Of a stretch of 64,000 bases of DNA, positions 3,356-9,581 are shown one piece after another (positions within the stretch are counted from its first letter, which is position 1; every line of letters starts with the position of its first letter). The translations under genes and the position numbers were made by a program. A model generated the notes under the pieces. The model had not been told where the DNA came from and made no database searches. It worked only from the letters and a program-made list of their open reading frames with translations. Source of the stretch: Actinomycetes bacterium (GTDB lineage: Bacteria > Actinomycetota > Acidimicrobiia > Acidimicrobiales > Poriferisodalaceae); assembly GCA_024228575.1 (NCBI GenBank), contig JAAETH010000072.1:1-64000 (forward strand), in the 5' to 3' direction.

Positions 3356-3679
3356 ATGAAGAAGGGAATCCTGCTGCACGAGGCCGACGACGATGTCGGT
3401 GTGGCAACGATGGACCTGAGAACGGGCGAGGTCATCGAGGCCTTGACCCTCGAAGGCGAACGTGTGACCGAGATAGAACTCGTCGACGACGTGCCTCTCG
3501 CACACAAGGTGGCAATGCAGCCGAAGGAAGCGCACCAGGATGTCGTCGAGTACGGGCGAGCGATCGGATCGTCCACGACGGCGATCGCCAGGGGCGCCCA
3601 CGTCCATACCCACAACCTTCACGGCAAACGATGGAGCGGAAGGTCTCAGATCGTCGAACATCACGGGGATGAATCATGA
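3356..3679 (+). CDS. UxaA-family small subunit with SAF domain (altronate dehydratase or sulfolactate sulfo-lyase type)
   Basis: The 107-residue protein begins MKKGILLHEADDDVGVATMD and contains GAHVHTHNLHGKRW near its C-terminus, the signature of the SAF-type small domain found at the N-terminus of altronate/galactarate dehydratases and as the separate subunit SuyA of (2R)-sulfolactate sulfo-lyase. ATG 3356 is preceded six bases upstream by a perfect AGGAGG (3344-3349), which decides the start. Its stop overlaps the start of the large subunit (ATGA at 3676-3679), so the two are translationally coupled and probably form one enzyme. Whether the substrate is a sugar acid or sulfolactate cannot be told from sequence alone. 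Confidence 0.8.
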   Translation: MKKGILLHEADDDVGVATMDLRTGEVIEALTLEGERVTEIELVDDVPLAHKVAMQPKEAHQDVVEYGRAIGSSTTAIARGAHVHTHNLHGKRWSGRSQIVEHHGDES

Positions 3680-4845
3680 GTGAATACCACGACATCTCGC
3701 TCACGGGCTACCGCCGCGAGAACGGGCGGGTTGGAATCCGCAACTTCGTTCTGCTGATCTCCGTCGACGACATCTCGAACGCGGCTGTTCTCGGTGTGCA
3801 GAACCTCGTTCGGGGCACACTCGCGCTCCCTCATCCGTACGGGCGACTCCAGTTCGGAGCCGACCTCGATCTCACCTTCGACACGCTCATCGGGTACGGC
3901 AAGAACCCCAACGTCGCTGCGGTGGTCGTGATCGGTATCGAGCCGAACTGGACCAACCACATCGTCGAGCAGATCGCCGAGACCGGCAAACCCGTCCGCG
4001 GGTTCAGCATCGAACGCACCGGCGACCTTCAGACCATCGCCGACGCCGCCCGCGTCGCCCAGCAGTTCGTCCAGTACGCGACGGAACTACAGCGGGTTCC
4101 CGTCGAGTGGAACGAGATCCTGGTCTCGACCAAGTGCGGCGAGTCCGACACCACGAGCGGCCTGGCCTCCAACCCGACGGTCGGCCGTGTCTACGACCGC
4201 CTCGAGGAAGGTGGCAGCACCCTGATCTTCGGCGAGACCACCGAGGTCACGGGAGCCGAGGACAAGGTGATGGAGAGGTGCTCCACACCCGAGGTCGCTG
4301 CACAGTTCAAGCAGGCCTTCGACGACTACCAGGACCTCGTTCAATCGCAGGGGGTCAACCTGTTGGGATCCCAGCCCACCGAGGGCAACATCCGCGGCGG
4401 CTTGACCACCATCGAGGAGAAGGCGCTCGGCAACGTCGAGAAGATGGGACGTTGCAGCGTCGTGGGCTACCTCGACCAGGCCGAGGCTCCGGGCGGGCCG
4501 CCAGGCCTGTACTTCATGGACTCCTCCAGCGCCGCGGCCGAGATGGTCACCCTGTGTTGCGCAGGTGGTGCTGTTCTTCACCTGTTCACGACCGGCCAGG
4601 GCAACATCATCGGCAACCCTGTCCTTCCGACGATCAAGATCACGGCGAACCCCCTGACGGTCGAGACGATGTCGGAACACGTCGATGTCGATGTCAGCGG
4701 ATTGCTTCGATTCGAGTACAACCTCGACGGAGCGGCGGATCTCACGATGGAGAACATGGCCCGCACCATCAATGGTCGACTGACCTGCGCCGAGACCCTG
4801 CGTCACGACGAGTTCGTACTGACCAAGCTGTACCGCAGTGCGTGA
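3676..4845 (+). CDS. UxaA-family large subunit (altronate dehydratase or sulfolactate sulfo-lyase type)
   Basis: The 389-residue product starts with GYRRENGRVGIRNFVLLISV, the typical entry of the altronate/galactarate dehydratase large domain (GYxRxdGRvGvRN). Further family features are STKCGESDTTSGLASNPTVG near residue 150, a Gly-rich ETTEVTGAED segment, and CCAGGAVLHLFTTGQGN with NPVLPTIKITANP toward the C-terminus. Family members eliminate water (UxaA, GarD) or sulfite (SuyB) from 2-hydroxy acids with a metal-assisted mechanism. The length, without a fused SAF domain, fits split enzymes such as SuyB. It overlaps its small subunit by four bases and is followed by a LarA-type racemase, so the substrate is probably an alpha-hydroxy acid whose stereochemistry matters. 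Confidence 0.85.
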   Translation: MSEYHDISLTGYRRENGRVGIRNFVLLISVDDISNAAVLGVQNLVRGTLALPHPYGRLQFGADLDLTFDTLIGYGKNPNVAAVVVIGIEPNWTNHIVEQIAETGKPVRGFSIERTGDLQTIADAARVAQQFVQYATELQRVPVEWNEILVSTKCGESDTTSGLASNPTVGRVYDRLEEGGSTLIFGETTEVTGAEDKVMERCSTPEVAAQFKQAFDDYQDLVQSQGVNLLGSQPTEGNIRGGLTTIEEKALGNVEKMGRCSVVGYLDQAEAPGGPPGLYFMDSSSAAAEMVTLCCAGGAVLHLFTTGQGNIIGNPVLPTIKITANPLTVETMSEHVDVDVSGLLRFEYNLDGAADLTMENMARTINGRLTCAETLRHDEFVLTKLYRSA

Positions 4846-4895
4846 ACCCGTGCGGCCTTCGGCCGGCGAAGCCTTTCACCCCCGCCGAGGGTTCG

Positions 4896-4948
4896 GGCGA
4901 AACGTTCCCGAAGGCACGGGATTGTGGAACCATGGCGGAACGTTCGCC
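4896..4948 (+). promoter_or_regulatory. Twin AACGTT operator-like sites before the racemase gene
   Basis: GGCGAAACGTTCC (4896-4908) and GGCGGAACGTTCGCC (4934-4948) share a palindromic AACGTT core. The cores are 38 bp apart and the second ends 23 bp before ATG 4972. The layout resembles paired operators of a LacI-type regulator, but no regulator gene is adjacent. Confidence 0.35.
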
Positions 4949-4971
4949 GTGACCGGAGTCTGAAGAACCAG

Positions 4972-6231
4972 ATGGAGATTTGTGTTCCATACGGGCACTC
5001 GGCCGTGTCAGCCCAGGTGCCCGACGGTCTTCATGTCGACATCGTCGAGCTCCCCGACACGCCGTCGGTTGCCACCCCTCTCGCCGAAGTGCAACGTGCT
5101 GTGGGTCAACCGGTCGGCGACTTCGACTGGGCGCGACACGAGCGGGTGTCGTCGGTCGCGATAGCGATCAATGACAAGACCCGGCCCGTGCCTCACCAGC
5201 ACCTGCTGCCACCGCTTCTCGATCGGCTGGCCCATCTGCGGATACCCGACGATGCGATCACGTTCTACATCGCGGTGGGCGGACATCCGCCGATGACCCC
5301 CGACGAATACCCGGCCGTCATCCCGCCCGAGATCCTCGATCGGTTCGAGGTCGTGTCACATGACGCTGAATGTGACGCCGATCTCGTCTTCCTCGGTGAC
5401 ACCACGGCCGGGACGCCGGTCTGGGCCAACAGAGCCTATGTCGAGGCCGATCTCAAGATTGTTGTCGGCACGATCGAACCCCACCAGTTCGTCGGCTTCT
5501 CAGGTGGTGTAAAAAGCGCGGCCATCGGTTTGGCCGGGCTGGCGACGATCACCGCCAACCACACCTTGATGACACATCCCGATTCTCAGATCGGCACCTA
5601 CACGACGAACCCGGCGCGCAGCGACGTCGAGGAGATCGGCGAGCTCATCGGTGTCGACGTCGCCCTGAACGCGATTCTCGATCAGGGACGCGAGATCGTG
5701 CGGGCGGTTGTTGGCGCTCCGGTTGCCGTGATGGAACAGGGTACTCCGCTGGCCCGCGAGCTCTGCCAGGTAGCGGTCGGACACGACTACGGACTGGTCG
5801 TCACCTCGCCGGGGGGTCACCCGAAGGACATCGACGTCTACCAGTCACAAAAGGCTGTGGCGTCGGCCGCTCGGATCGTCCGCCCCGGCGGGACGATCAT
5901 CTTGGTCGCGTCCTGCCCCGACGGTGCCGGCAGCGACCACTACGAGCGGTGGGTGTCGCAAAGACACTCACGCCAGGAGGTAGTCGATGTGTTTGCGAAC
6001 GAGGGTTTCCACATCGGCCCTCACAAGGCCTACCAGATCGCCCGCGACACCGAGTGGGCAACCCTGATCGTTTGCTCCGACATGTCGGACGAGACGGCGC
6101 GCCGACTGTTGCTGGATCCGGCCGACGATCTCCAGGCTGCGCTCGATCGGGCCCTTGCCCGTCTCGAACCGGGGGAACCCATTGCGGTCCTGCCCCATGC
6201 CGCAACAACAATTCCGTACCTCAACACCTGA
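4972..6231 (+). CDS. Nickel-pincer-dependent racemase, LarA family
   Basis: The 419-residue protein is a LarA-family (DUF2088) enzyme. His105 in AVGGHPPMT, His171 and Lys181 in EPHQFVGFSGGVK, and His197 in ANH reproduce, with a constant offset of three residues, the catalytic and nickel-binding positions I recall for lactate racemase LarA of Lactobacillus plantarum (His108, His174, Lys184, His200). Lys184 there carries the covalent Ni-pincer cofactor. The family racemizes or epimerizes various alpha-hydroxy acids, not only lactate. The cofactor genes larB, larC and larE are not in this window. Position after a UxaA/SuyAB-type pair suggests it supplies the enantiomer that the lyase accepts. 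ATG 4972 begins the conserved MEICVPYG strand. Confidence 0.85.
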   Translation: MEICVPYGHSAVSAQVPDGLHVDIVELPDTPSVATPLAEVQRAVGQPVGDFDWARHERVSSVAIAINDKTRPVPHQHLLPPLLDRLAHLRIPDDAITFYIAVGGHPPMTPDEYPAVIPPEILDRFEVVSHDAECDADLVFLGDTTAGTPVWANRAYVEADLKIVVGTIEPHQFVGFSGGVKSAAIGLAGLATITANHTLMTHPDSQIGTYTTNPARSDVEEIGELIGVDVALNAILDQGREIVRAVVGAPVAVMEQGTPLARELCQVAVGHDYGLVVTSPGGHPKDIDVYQSQKAVASAARIVRPGGTIILVASCPDGAGSDHYERWVSQRHSRQEVVDVFANEGFHIGPHKAYQIARDTEWATLIVCSDMSDETARRLLLDPADDLQAALDRALARLEPGEPIAVLPHAATTIPYLNT

Positions 6232-6426: not shown

Positions 6427-7173
6427 ATGCAACTCCGGGTACTGGCGCTGATCGTCGTCTTCGTGTTCGCTTCGGCGTGCAGTGCTGACTCCGACGGCGA
6501 CGGATCTGTGGACTCCGACGGGTCCGATGTACCTGCCCAAGCGCTCGAGGCCTCAGCCGACGTGCTGATAGCGACGGCAGCCGACGCCATCGCCGAAGTC
6601 ACGAGTGTTCACTTCGCCCTCGATCGCACCGGCGCCGCGGTCCACATCGATACTGCCGACCTCATCGCGCTCGAAGCGGTCGAGGGACGCTGGGTGGCTC
6701 CAGAGAGTGCCGACGCTCTGATGACCGTACGCATCAACGACGCCATCAACACCAAACTAGGAGCGGTGGCGATAGGTGAAGACGTGTGGCTGTCGAACCC
6801 GATCACCGGCACATTCGAACCCCTGCCCGATGGCTACAACGTCGATCCGACCGAGTTCTTCGATCCCGTCGGGGGATGGCGCCCCCTGTTGCTGGCGATG
6901 ACCGATGTCGAGTACGTCGGGGAAGATACCCGTGCGGGCGGTACGTACCATCTTCGAGGCATGGCCCAGGCCGACCACGTCGAGTACGTCACCGCACGGC
7001 TGGTGCGCAACCAGGACCTGATCATCGATATGTGGGTGGAAACCGACACAGCCCTGATTCGAAGCGTCGAGTTCTCGAACGACCACGCGGGCGGCACCAC
7101 CGATTGGAGTCTCGAACTCGACCAGTACGACGAAGAGATGACCGTCGAAGTCCCCGAAGACATCAGGGGCTGA
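6427..7173 (+). CDS. LppX/LprG-like lipoprotein
   Basis: The 248-residue product starts with a lipoprotein signal peptide (MQLRVLALIVVFVFASAC, lipobox ending at Cys18) and an acidic Ser/Asp linker. The mature part has the LppX_LprAFG family pattern: an N-terminal helix (LIATAADAIAEVTSVHFALD), then alternating strands including LEAVEGRWVAPESADALMTV and GEDVWLSNPITGTFEPLPDG, and TYHLRGMAQADHVEYVT. Mycobacterial LprG carries triacylated lipids in a hydrophobic cavity and works with the MFS transporter P55 encoded next to it. Here too an MFS gene follows 168 bp downstream in the same direction, which supports the assignment. It should be anchored on the outer face of the membrane. Confidence 0.8.
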   Translation: MQLRVLALIVVFVFASACSADSDGDGSVDSDGSDVPAQALEASADVLIATAADAIAEVTSVHFALDRTGAAVHIDTADLIALEAVEGRWVAPESADALMTVRINDAINTKLGAVAIGEDVWLSNPITGTFEPLPDGYNVDPTEFFDPVGGWRPLLLAMTDVEYVGEDTRAGGTYHLRGMAQADHVEYVTARLVRNQDLIIDMWVETDTALIRSVEFSNDHAGGTTDWSLELDQYDEEMTVEVPEDIRG

Positions 7174-7340
7174 CTTGTCGTTGGGGAGCCGCGCGAACAG
7201 CGGAGTGCGTAAGCGACAGCCAGGTCGGGGGCGGGGCCCGAACCCCCCGGTGAGCCCAGCGAACCGCGAGTGGGCAATGGTCCCTGACGCCCGTTCAGCG
7301 CTTCTATCCGCCGGGCCCTTGAGATCGCGTCGAGTGCCAA

Positions 7341-9581
7341 ATGAATGATGCCACCGTTGCGGACCGCAGGAGTCCGGCGTGGGTGATGTTCGCCGTGGGC
7401 TGGGCCGTGTTCGTCGCGGCCGACGACCTGACGGTCGTGTCGACGATGTTGCGGCCCATCGTCACCGACATGGGTCTGGTCCTGCCCGACGGGCTCGACG
7501 ACGCCGCGTGGGCGGTCAACGCCTACCTCATCGCATTTGTTGCCGTGATGCCCCTGTCGGGCCGACTGAGCGACGTCATCGGCCGTAGGGCCACCTTCGT
7601 CTGGGCCTACCTGGTCTTCCTGGTCGGCACCATCGTGATCCCGACGGCCGACTCGATGGGACCCTTCCTTGTCGGTCGTGTCCTCACCGCAATCGGCGGC
7701 GGGGCGATGCTGCCGGTCGCGATGGCGGTCATCGGCGACGTGCACTCCGAACCGAGGCGAGCCAGGGCGCTCGGCACGCTCGGAGCGATCGAAACTCTCG
7801 GCTGGGTCTGGGGCCCCCTTTACGGCGCCATGTTGGTCCGCTTCCTCACATGGAGATGGCAGTTCTGGTTGAACGTGCCGATGGCACTGTTCGGGATGGC
7901 GATCGTGTGGTGGGCGCTGGCCGATCACACCCGCCGATCGGCGACCGAACGCCCAGGATCGATCGATTGGATCGGCGCCGGCGCCCTCACGACGCTGCTG
8001 GTCTGCCTGAACCTCGCCCTGCTGGGCAACGCCGAGATCCAGAGTGTCAGCGGTCTCGAGGAACTGGCGCCATCGAATGGATTTGACTTCAGATGGCTGC
8101 TGATCCCCGCCCTCATCGCTGCGCTCATCGCGTGGAAACGACAGAGGGATGCCGAGTCACCCCTGCTGGCACGGGGCCTGTTCCGAGGCCGCCTCGTCAA
8201 GATCGCCCTGGCGGTGAACGCAGTTGTCGGCGCGGCGCTGGTGATCTCGATGGTCGACGTTCCGTTGTTCATCAACGCCGTCGAGGTCGACCTCGAAGAT
8301 TCTGCGGTCGCCTCGGGCTGGGTGCTGGCTGCGCTGACGTCCTCGATGGCCATCACCAGCTACATCGGTGGTCGTGTCACCGAGACCAGGGGATACCGAG
8401 CTGCCGTCGTGACGGGCCTCATCGCAGCCTTTTTTGCCTTTGTTGTCATGGGCCTCGTCTGGGAACCGGCGACCTCACACTGGACGATGGCACTTCACCT
8501 CGGCGTTCTCGGCGCCGGCGTGGGCATGGTTGTTGCGCCGACCTCGTCGGCGGTGGTCGACAGCGCAGATCCAGGCGATCGCGGTGCGGCCGCATCGCTG
8601 GTCATGGTCGCTCGCCTCATCGGCTTGAGTGTTGGTCTGTCGGCGCTGACCGCCTGGGGCCTGCACCGGTACGACACCCTCCGAAAACAGGTCGACCTCC
8701 CACCGATCACCGATCCGTCGTTCGCCGATGCTGCCCAGGAAGTCCAAGCCAGTTTGACCGCTGACGCAATGACCGAGACCTTCCTGGCCGCAGCCGTCGT
8801 CGTGTTCCTCGGCGTGATTGCCGGGATTGCGATGAACTCGCACCGATCACCCCCGAAATCTCAGGCTCCTTCAGAAGGAGGGCACGCCATGTCCGCTCCA
8901 AACGAACGTCTGCTGCGCATCGCAGTAGGTTCCCTGGCCGCAGCACTTCTGGTCTCGATCGTGGCCATCGCCGTGTTGTTCGGCCGCACGGGACGAACCG
9001 ACGAACGCATCGCAGAACTCGAAGCCAAGCTCTTGGCCTCCGAGGGCGAGAGTGCGATCCTCGAGGAGGATCTGCAACGAGTCGAGGCTGGTGCTGCCTT
9101 GTTCGCCGGCCAGGTGACGGCGTTCCAGGAGCGCATCGTTCAGCTCGAACCCCAGGTGTCGGAAGGCATCGATTCCGCAATCGCTGGTCTCGCGGAGTTC
9201 TCGTCTTCGACGCTGACCTTCGACGTGAAGATCGACGAGATGATCACGATCGACACCGAGGTGGTCCTCGACAGGACAATCTCCATCCCGATCGACGAGA
9301 CGATCCCCATCGACGAGACCATCGACACGACCATCAAGGTCGACACACCCTTGGGTGCCATCCCACTCGACATCAAGGTGCCGATCAACCTCGACGTTCC
9401 CATTGTGTTGGAGGTCGATATCCCGATCAACGAGACCGTTCCGGTCGCCGCGGAAGTCCCTGTCAACATCGACATCCCGATCACCATCGACGTCGCAGAG
9501 ACCGAGCTCGTCGAGTTGACCGAGTCGCTGAGCCAGGGCCTCGACGAGCTGAGAAATGTCTTGTCGGGCCTTGCAGGCTGA
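7341..9581 (+). CDS. P55-like MFS transporter with C-terminal coiled-coil and beta-repeat extension
   Basis: Residues 1-516 form a DHA2/P55-like MFS transporter, close to the length I recall for mycobacterial P55. It has the motif A-like loop GRLSDVIGRRATF, a long TM9-TM10 excursion (around QSVSGLEELAPSNGFDF) and many membrane helices. The frame then continues without a stop into a 230-residue extension: one membrane helix (LLRIAVGSLAAALLVSIVAI), a coiled coil (GRTDERIAELEAKLLASEG onward), and about 100 residues of repeating I-x-I strands such as SIPIDETIPIDETIDTTIKV. A strong ribosome binding site and ATG at 8889 lie in frame at the junction, so the extension may also be made alone. With the lipoprotein upstream this looks like an LprG/P55-type lipid exporter with an added external component. 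Confidence 0.8.
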   Translation: MNDATVADRRSPAWVMFAVGWAVFVAADDLTVVSTMLRPIVTDMGLVLPDGLDDAAWAVNAYLIAFVAVMPLSGRLSDVIGRRATFVWAYLVFLVGTIVIPTADSMGPFLVGRVLTAIGGGAMLPVAMAVIGDVHSEPRRARALGTLGAIETLGWVWGPLYGAMLVRFLTWRWQFWLNVPMALFGMAIVWWALADHTRRSATERPGSIDWIGAGALTTLLVCLNLALLGNAEIQSVSGLEELAPSNGFDFRWLLIPALIAALIAWKRQRDAESPLLARGLFRGRLVKIALAVNAVVGAALVISMVDVPLFINAVEVDLEDSAVASGWVLAALTSSMAITSYIGGRVTETRGYRAAVVTGLIAAFFAFVVMGLVWEPATSHWTMALHLGVLGAGVGMVVAPTSSAVVDSADPGDRGAAASLVMVARLIGLSVGLSALTAWGLHRYDTLRKQVDLPPITDPSFADAAQEVQASLTADAMTETFLAAAVVVFLGVIAGIAMNSHRSPPKSQAPSEGGHAMSAPNERLLRIAVGSLAAALLVSIVAIAVLFGRTGRTDERIAELEAKLLASEGESAILEEDLQRVEAGAALFAGQVTAFQERIVQLEPQVSEGIDSAIAGLAEFSSSTLTFDVKIDEMITIDTEVVLDRTISIPIDETIPIDETIDTTIKVDTPLGAIPLDIKVPINLDVPIVLEVDIPINETVPVAAEVPVNIDIPITIDVAETELVELTESLSQGLDELRNVLSGLAG
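8873..8891 (+). promoter_or_regulatory. Internal ribosome binding site and in-frame start within the MFS reading frame
   Basis: AGAAGGAGGG at 8873-8882 is a near-perfect Shine-Dalgarno sequence six bases before ATG 8889, which is in frame with the MFS gene. Initiation here would give a separate 230-residue protein (8889-9581) beginning MSAPNERLLRIAVG, with its own membrane anchor. It is the junction exactly where an ordinary MFS protein would end. Confidence 0.65.

Follow-up and report, generated by a model that had tools for sequence, protein, structure and literature searches.

The window, by which we mean the whole stretch of 64,000 nucleotides analysed here, contains a gene for a lipoprotein followed on the same strand by a single open frame of 746 amino acids, in which a transporter of the major facilitator superfamily (MFS) runs on into a third component of 230 residues (Table 1). 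The coordinates given in an earlier sequence-only reading, 6427-9581 for the whole and 8889-9581 for the third component, hold: the lipoprotein gene lies at 6427-7173, and the transporter and its extension occupy one frame at 7341-9581.

Table 1. Features of the lipoprotein-transporter locus, with positions in the window
Feature	Position	Strand	Evidence
LprG-like lipoprotein (LppX_LprAFG family)	6427..7173	+	PF07161, E 3.2e-15
P55/Rv1410-like DHA2 MFS transporter domain and start of cytoplasmic linker	7341..8888	+	MFS_1; best PDB hit 8PNL
Internal ribosome-binding site AAGGAGG and ATG 8889, in the frame of the transporter	8874..8891	+	Sequence; junction enrichment
Third component: TM helix, coiled coil, 46+46-residue β-hairpin, C-terminal helix	8889..9581	+	Relatives; AlphaFold2
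β-hairpin, third-component residues 108-201 (I-x-I region)	9210..9491	+	Alternation; model strands; paired deletions in L049

The lipoprotein gene starts with ATG and encodes 248 residues with an ASAC lipobox. Its product scores 56.9 bits with the LppX_LprAFG model (PF07161; cut-off 24) and is the sole member of this family found in the genome of the window. A gap of 167 bases separates the gene from the transporter frame, and this gap (7174-7340) contains a dispersed repeat, about 130 nt long, that recurs at seven further genomic sites (70–82 %). Upstream of the trio lie dehydratase and racemase genes, downstream those of a branched-chain ABC transporter and an acyl-CoA ligase. The upstream stretch 3676-6231 comprises a galactarate/altronate dehydratase-like gene and then a gene for a LarAH5-type nickel-dependent malate racemase (518.6 bits against a cut-off of 462). 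At a second locus, L004, the gene after the third component is unrelated to the downstream gene of the window; a larger fixed operon was rejected on the differing flanks of these two loci, a comparison of one pair. A scan for promoters and terminators gave no signal above chance.

The transporter domain occupies residues 1 to about 500 of the frame, ending near 8880, and matches MFS_1 with an E-value of 7e-41. The nearest subfamily model is EmrB/DHA2, with a score under that model's cut-off, and 14 TM helices are predicted in the transporter part of a model of the whole frame. Its best match in the PDB is MHAS2168 (8PNL, E 4.4e-49), the next being EfpA at 1.6e-15. MHAS2168 is a mycobacterial triacylglyceride transporter and a homologue of Rv1410/P55; the residues important in Rv1410 were taken from the same work, in which D35/R118 and the ion lock E157-R426 follow MHAS2168 numbering (PMC10576003). 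The TM1 aspartate and TM4 arginine (D29 and R113 here, D35 and R118 in MHAS2168) are kept in 26 of 26 relatives, and so is the cavity arginine R425, the equivalent of the ion-lock partner R426. In contrast, the ion-lock glutamate E157 of MHAS2168 faces T152 here, with a glutamate or aspartate one residue earlier in all 26 relatives. Judged by helix ranges only, the predicted helices 411-448 and 461-496 would be long enough to form the periplasmic extension of TM11 and TM12. Since MHAS2168 is clearly the best solved relative and the key residues of Rv1410 are mostly kept, the interpretation of lipoprotein and transporter as an LprG/P55-type pair, already proposed in the sequence-only reading, is well founded; the ion lock is the one point of difference.

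After the transporter follow a linker, one TM segment (hydropathy peak at frame residues 531-544), a long helix and an alternating isoleucine/valine/leucine stretch of about 94 residues. The membrane-anchored coiled coil that had been read from the letters is thus borne out, the TM segment by hydropathy and the long helix by the model described below. No significant match to 8889-9581 was found in Pfam, NCBIfam or the PDB, and it falls into no family that the searched libraries describe. A sequence-profile search of the PDB returned viral fusion glycoproteins only, weakly (E 0.013 or worse), which we read as helix/coiled-coil similarity. Pfam DUF948 appears in 4 of 25 third-component members (best E 1.3e-4), a match that presumably reflects the coiled coil.

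For the 230-residue third component AlphaFold2, supplied with 17 sequences, predicts a helix (4-105), two strands (108-153 and 156-201) and a terminal helix (207-229), with a pLDDT of 80.5 and a pTM of 0.33. The model of the whole frame gives the same elements, but the pLDDT of its hairpin is only about 50. Both strands are strongly two-faced: the faces of strand 2 are 91 % and 13 % hydrophobic, a split reached in 0 of 20,000 shuffles, and those of strand 1 are 70 % and 9 % hydrophobic (1 of 20,000), with one aliphatic face per strand in 25 of 25 relatives. Moreover, in the relative L049 each strand is shorter by 20 residues; the gaps fit best at 112-133 and 174-194, and under the predicted strand pairing the two deletions lie opposite each other within about 2 residues. 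Equal and facing, these deletions support the hairpin independently of the model, at one locus on a short contig. They also indicate that the length of the hairpin can evolve with its pairing kept. The alternation that had been described as repeating I-x-I strands is therefore real and shared by 25 relatives, but in prediction it takes the shape of a single, very long hairpin. Within one chain, a multi-strand groove or a tube, forms for which structure prediction had been suggested as a check, is not predicted, both models giving one hairpin. Foldseek found no significant fold, its top matches being phage tail proteins, β-pore toxin stems and flagellar ring proteins (best E 0.09), and VIA Z scores of at most 6.3 are within chance for such shapes, so that the resemblance to other long-hairpin proteins is only an analogy. 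At L048, the end of the contig (6638-6743) repeats the hairpin region in inverted orientation, which probably reflects faulty assembly.

The lipoprotein, the transporter and the third component occur in this order on one strand at 35 loci including the window, a common gene order that gives good support to a third component. It lies in the frame of the transporter at 29 loci and forms a separate gene at 6, several of the latter with its start overlapping the transporter stop. Its relatives escaped a single-sequence contig search and were found by an alignment-based one. They are present in 16 of 200 genomes of one family, in 32 of 395 genomes of the class, a few of them weak, and in 3 of 396 genomes of a thin sample across the phylum, to which the whole-genome profile searches were confined. 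The named records among the relatives are of Acidimicrobiia type, Ilumatobacteraceae above all, and the class to which the 35 loci belong is apparently Acidimicrobiia, its name being taken from these records. In the literature library searched, no paper mentions both LprG and Acidimicrobi-. In a tree of the transporter, fused and separate states fall into several clusters and require several changes; as its support is rough and some branches are very long, no order of events is claimed.

The junction in the window carries a strong ribosome-binding site before ATG 8889. At fused junctions a ribosome-binding site with a start is found in 22 of 26 cases, as against 11.6 % of control windows; when ATG alone is counted, 21 of 26 junctions compare with a codon-shuffle mean of 5.0 and a maximum of 11 in 1,000, both controls ignoring the kinship of the loci. 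With start sites kept at most fused junctions, a free copy is probably made alongside the fusion. Codon-position GC continues its coding pattern across the junction, and L034, where the internal start is lost, must rely on the fusion. Taken together, these DNA-level findings suggest that the frame yields two products. The third component can accordingly be called built-in, the term of the sequence-only reading, at 29 loci, but it is separate at 6, and where it is fused a start of its own is over-represented at the junction.

Pair and module also occur apart. Four close LprG/P55-like pairs (L144, L146, L147 and L148) are without an adjacent third component and none was found elsewhere in those genomes; a further eight pairs, from family f16 and less closely related, likewise have none adjacent. 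The genomes G1046 and G1045 possess the pair and an unlinked third-component copy, which in G1046 sits after another MFS gene. Among ten genomes with a solitary copy, seven gave no LppX-family match and one more gave a match only under the cut-off. No close P55 was found in 7 of these 8 genomes (G1094 left out), in a search run without an internal positive control; in known carriers, the same transporter query gives alignments of about 60 % identity. The expected linkage of homologues to LprG/P55 genes was thus found at 35 loci, but there are also solitary copies without an LppX match over the cut-off or a close P55, which partly bears out what the sequence-only reading had named as a refuting result, an extension that is widespread without this linkage. 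Given these solitary and unlinked copies and the pairs lacking it, the module is a general one, which much of the class has joined to its P55-like pump, and the third component is not exclusive to the LprG/P55-type pump.

Two proteins make up the mycobacterial LprG-Rv1410 model (PMC10576003). As there, an LppX_LprAFG lipoprotein gene directly precedes a DHA2 MFS gene, long predicted helices flank the TM11-TM12 loop, and the aspartate-arginine pair and the cavity arginine are kept. By analogy, the pair in the window would export triacylglyceride or a similar lipid. It differs from the mycobacterial system in the displacement of the ion-lock acid by one residue and in the addition of the third component, fused or following, which lies outside the two-protein model. 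The closest working parallel for the latter is the solved EmrAB-TolC pump, in which the membrane-anchored adaptor EmrA sits on the DHA2 transporter EmrB, with six EmrA per EmrB (PMC13139468). Both systems combine a DHA2 transporter with a membrane-anchored partner in which a single N-terminal TM helix leads into a long rod, extracytoplasmic in EmrA and probably so here, and the surplus of adaptor over transporter seen there may exist here too. However, the rod of the window is predicted to consist of one helix and a β-hairpin, whereas in EmrA an α-hairpin is combined with lipoyl and β-barrel domains, and the third component is usually fused to its transporter. An HlyD/lipoyl profile found nothing in the window's third component at E up to 1, and the listing for 25 third-component members, which comprises 25 families, includes neither HlyD nor biotin-lipoyl. 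MmpS5-MmpL5 likewise joins an exporter bearing a long extracytoplasmic element to a membrane-anchored accessory protein, but it is an RND and not an MFS system, and its tube is an α-helical coiled coil of the transporter itself (PMC12501195). As for the β-groove lipid bridges of the AsmA/TamB type, no such family is among the Pfam hits listed, and the single long hairpin predicted here is a different form.

DHA2 transporters have both ends in the cytoplasm. As the fold thus places the C-terminus of the transporter there, the added helix would cross the membrane outwards and bring the coiled coil and the hairpin, that is the whole rod, to the side of the lipoprotein. The third component is best read as a periplasmic adaptor belonging to this exporter, which would work as EmrA does on EmrB, but no match found relates the two. 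Driven by protons, the transporter would bring its substrate, triacylglyceride or a similar lipid, to the outer face of the membrane, where the third subunit, tethered to the transporter and assumed to oligomerise via its coiled coil, would stand over the exit. The hydrophobic faces of its hairpin would then receive or shield the lipid, or else position the lipoprotein for hand-off, and the fused and free forms together would supply the adaptor in excess of the transporter, as in EmrAB-TolC. We hold such an LprG-P55-type exporter with an adaptor-like third subunit to be the likeliest arrangement, at a little short of even chances. It is supported by the PF07161 match, the relation to MHAS2168 and the conservation of D29, R113 and R425; by 35 loci in one order, 29 of them fused, with start sites at 21 of 26 junctions; and by the amphipathic hairpin, the L049 deletions and the EmrAB-TolC precedent of a DHA2 transporter with a membrane-anchored adaptor. 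Against it stand the solitary modules for which no LppX match over the cut-off and no close P55 was found, the four close pairs without any copy, the mycobacterial pairs that work as two proteins, and the shifted ion-lock glutamate.

Even for mycobacteria, the path of lipids between the inner membrane and the cell surface, once they have passed LprG-P55, is to our knowledge not yet settled. For environmental bacteria, a third partner that is conserved and in most relatives lies in the frame of the transporter offers a direct handle on this step, and the fused-plus-free arrangement leads to a testable prediction of stoichiometry. In a group of environmental actinobacteria, a pump of the LprG-P55 type, with which mycobacteria export fats, carries a third, conserved part, which may help to carry lipid, or hand it on, outside the membrane. 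This might involve a lipid groove or tube. That the hairpins of several subunits, one fused and the rest from the internal start, form a hydrophobic-lined β tube or groove that takes lipid from the transporter outwards through the cell wall seems quite improbable to us; if true, such a conduit would differ from the α-helical tubes of MmpL and EmrA and would take its stoichiometry from one gene with two products.

Second in likelihood to the adaptor, though rather doubtful, is a spacer or anchor that never touches lipid: the coiled coil would oligomerise the transporter, and hairpins packed face to face would build a rigid stalk, by which the pump is held in the cell wall or which spans it. Amphipathic hairpins with a long helix leading in can bury their faces mutually, and the solitary relatives in genomes without detectable LprG/P55 require no lipid partner. 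However, a shared frame or adjacency with a P55-like transporter at 35 loci points to a role linked with the pump. Third comes the unlikely case of an independent protein, anchored in the membrane, exposed at the surface and co-transcribed with the pump, the fusion being a tolerated read-through of abutting genes. Its own start sites at most junctions, the separate gene at 6 loci, the solitary relatives and the unlinked copies that G1046 and G1045 keep despite having the pair all fit this explanation. Yet the frame is open at 29 loci from several families, whereas chance leaves another frame of the junction open in no more than 3 or 17 of 26 cases; L034 is left with the fusion only, and the order persists at 35 loci despite differences among those flanking genes that were checked. 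Finally, the loss of a stop codon through an error of assembly or sequencing, conceivable in an assembly of 960 contigs, can practically be dismissed, as the fused frame recurs in 29 loci, two of them in the single-contig genomes G172 and G464.

Some of the solitary relatives have features of their own. Those at L127, L128, L129 and L130 are shorter and have no coiled-coil stretch; the start of a gene near them reads like fumarase FumC, which we presume it to encode. At L122, L123 and L124 (family f132), an ABC exporter gene, Pfam-checked for L122, lies downstream on the same strand, beyond a small gene in the opposite orientation.
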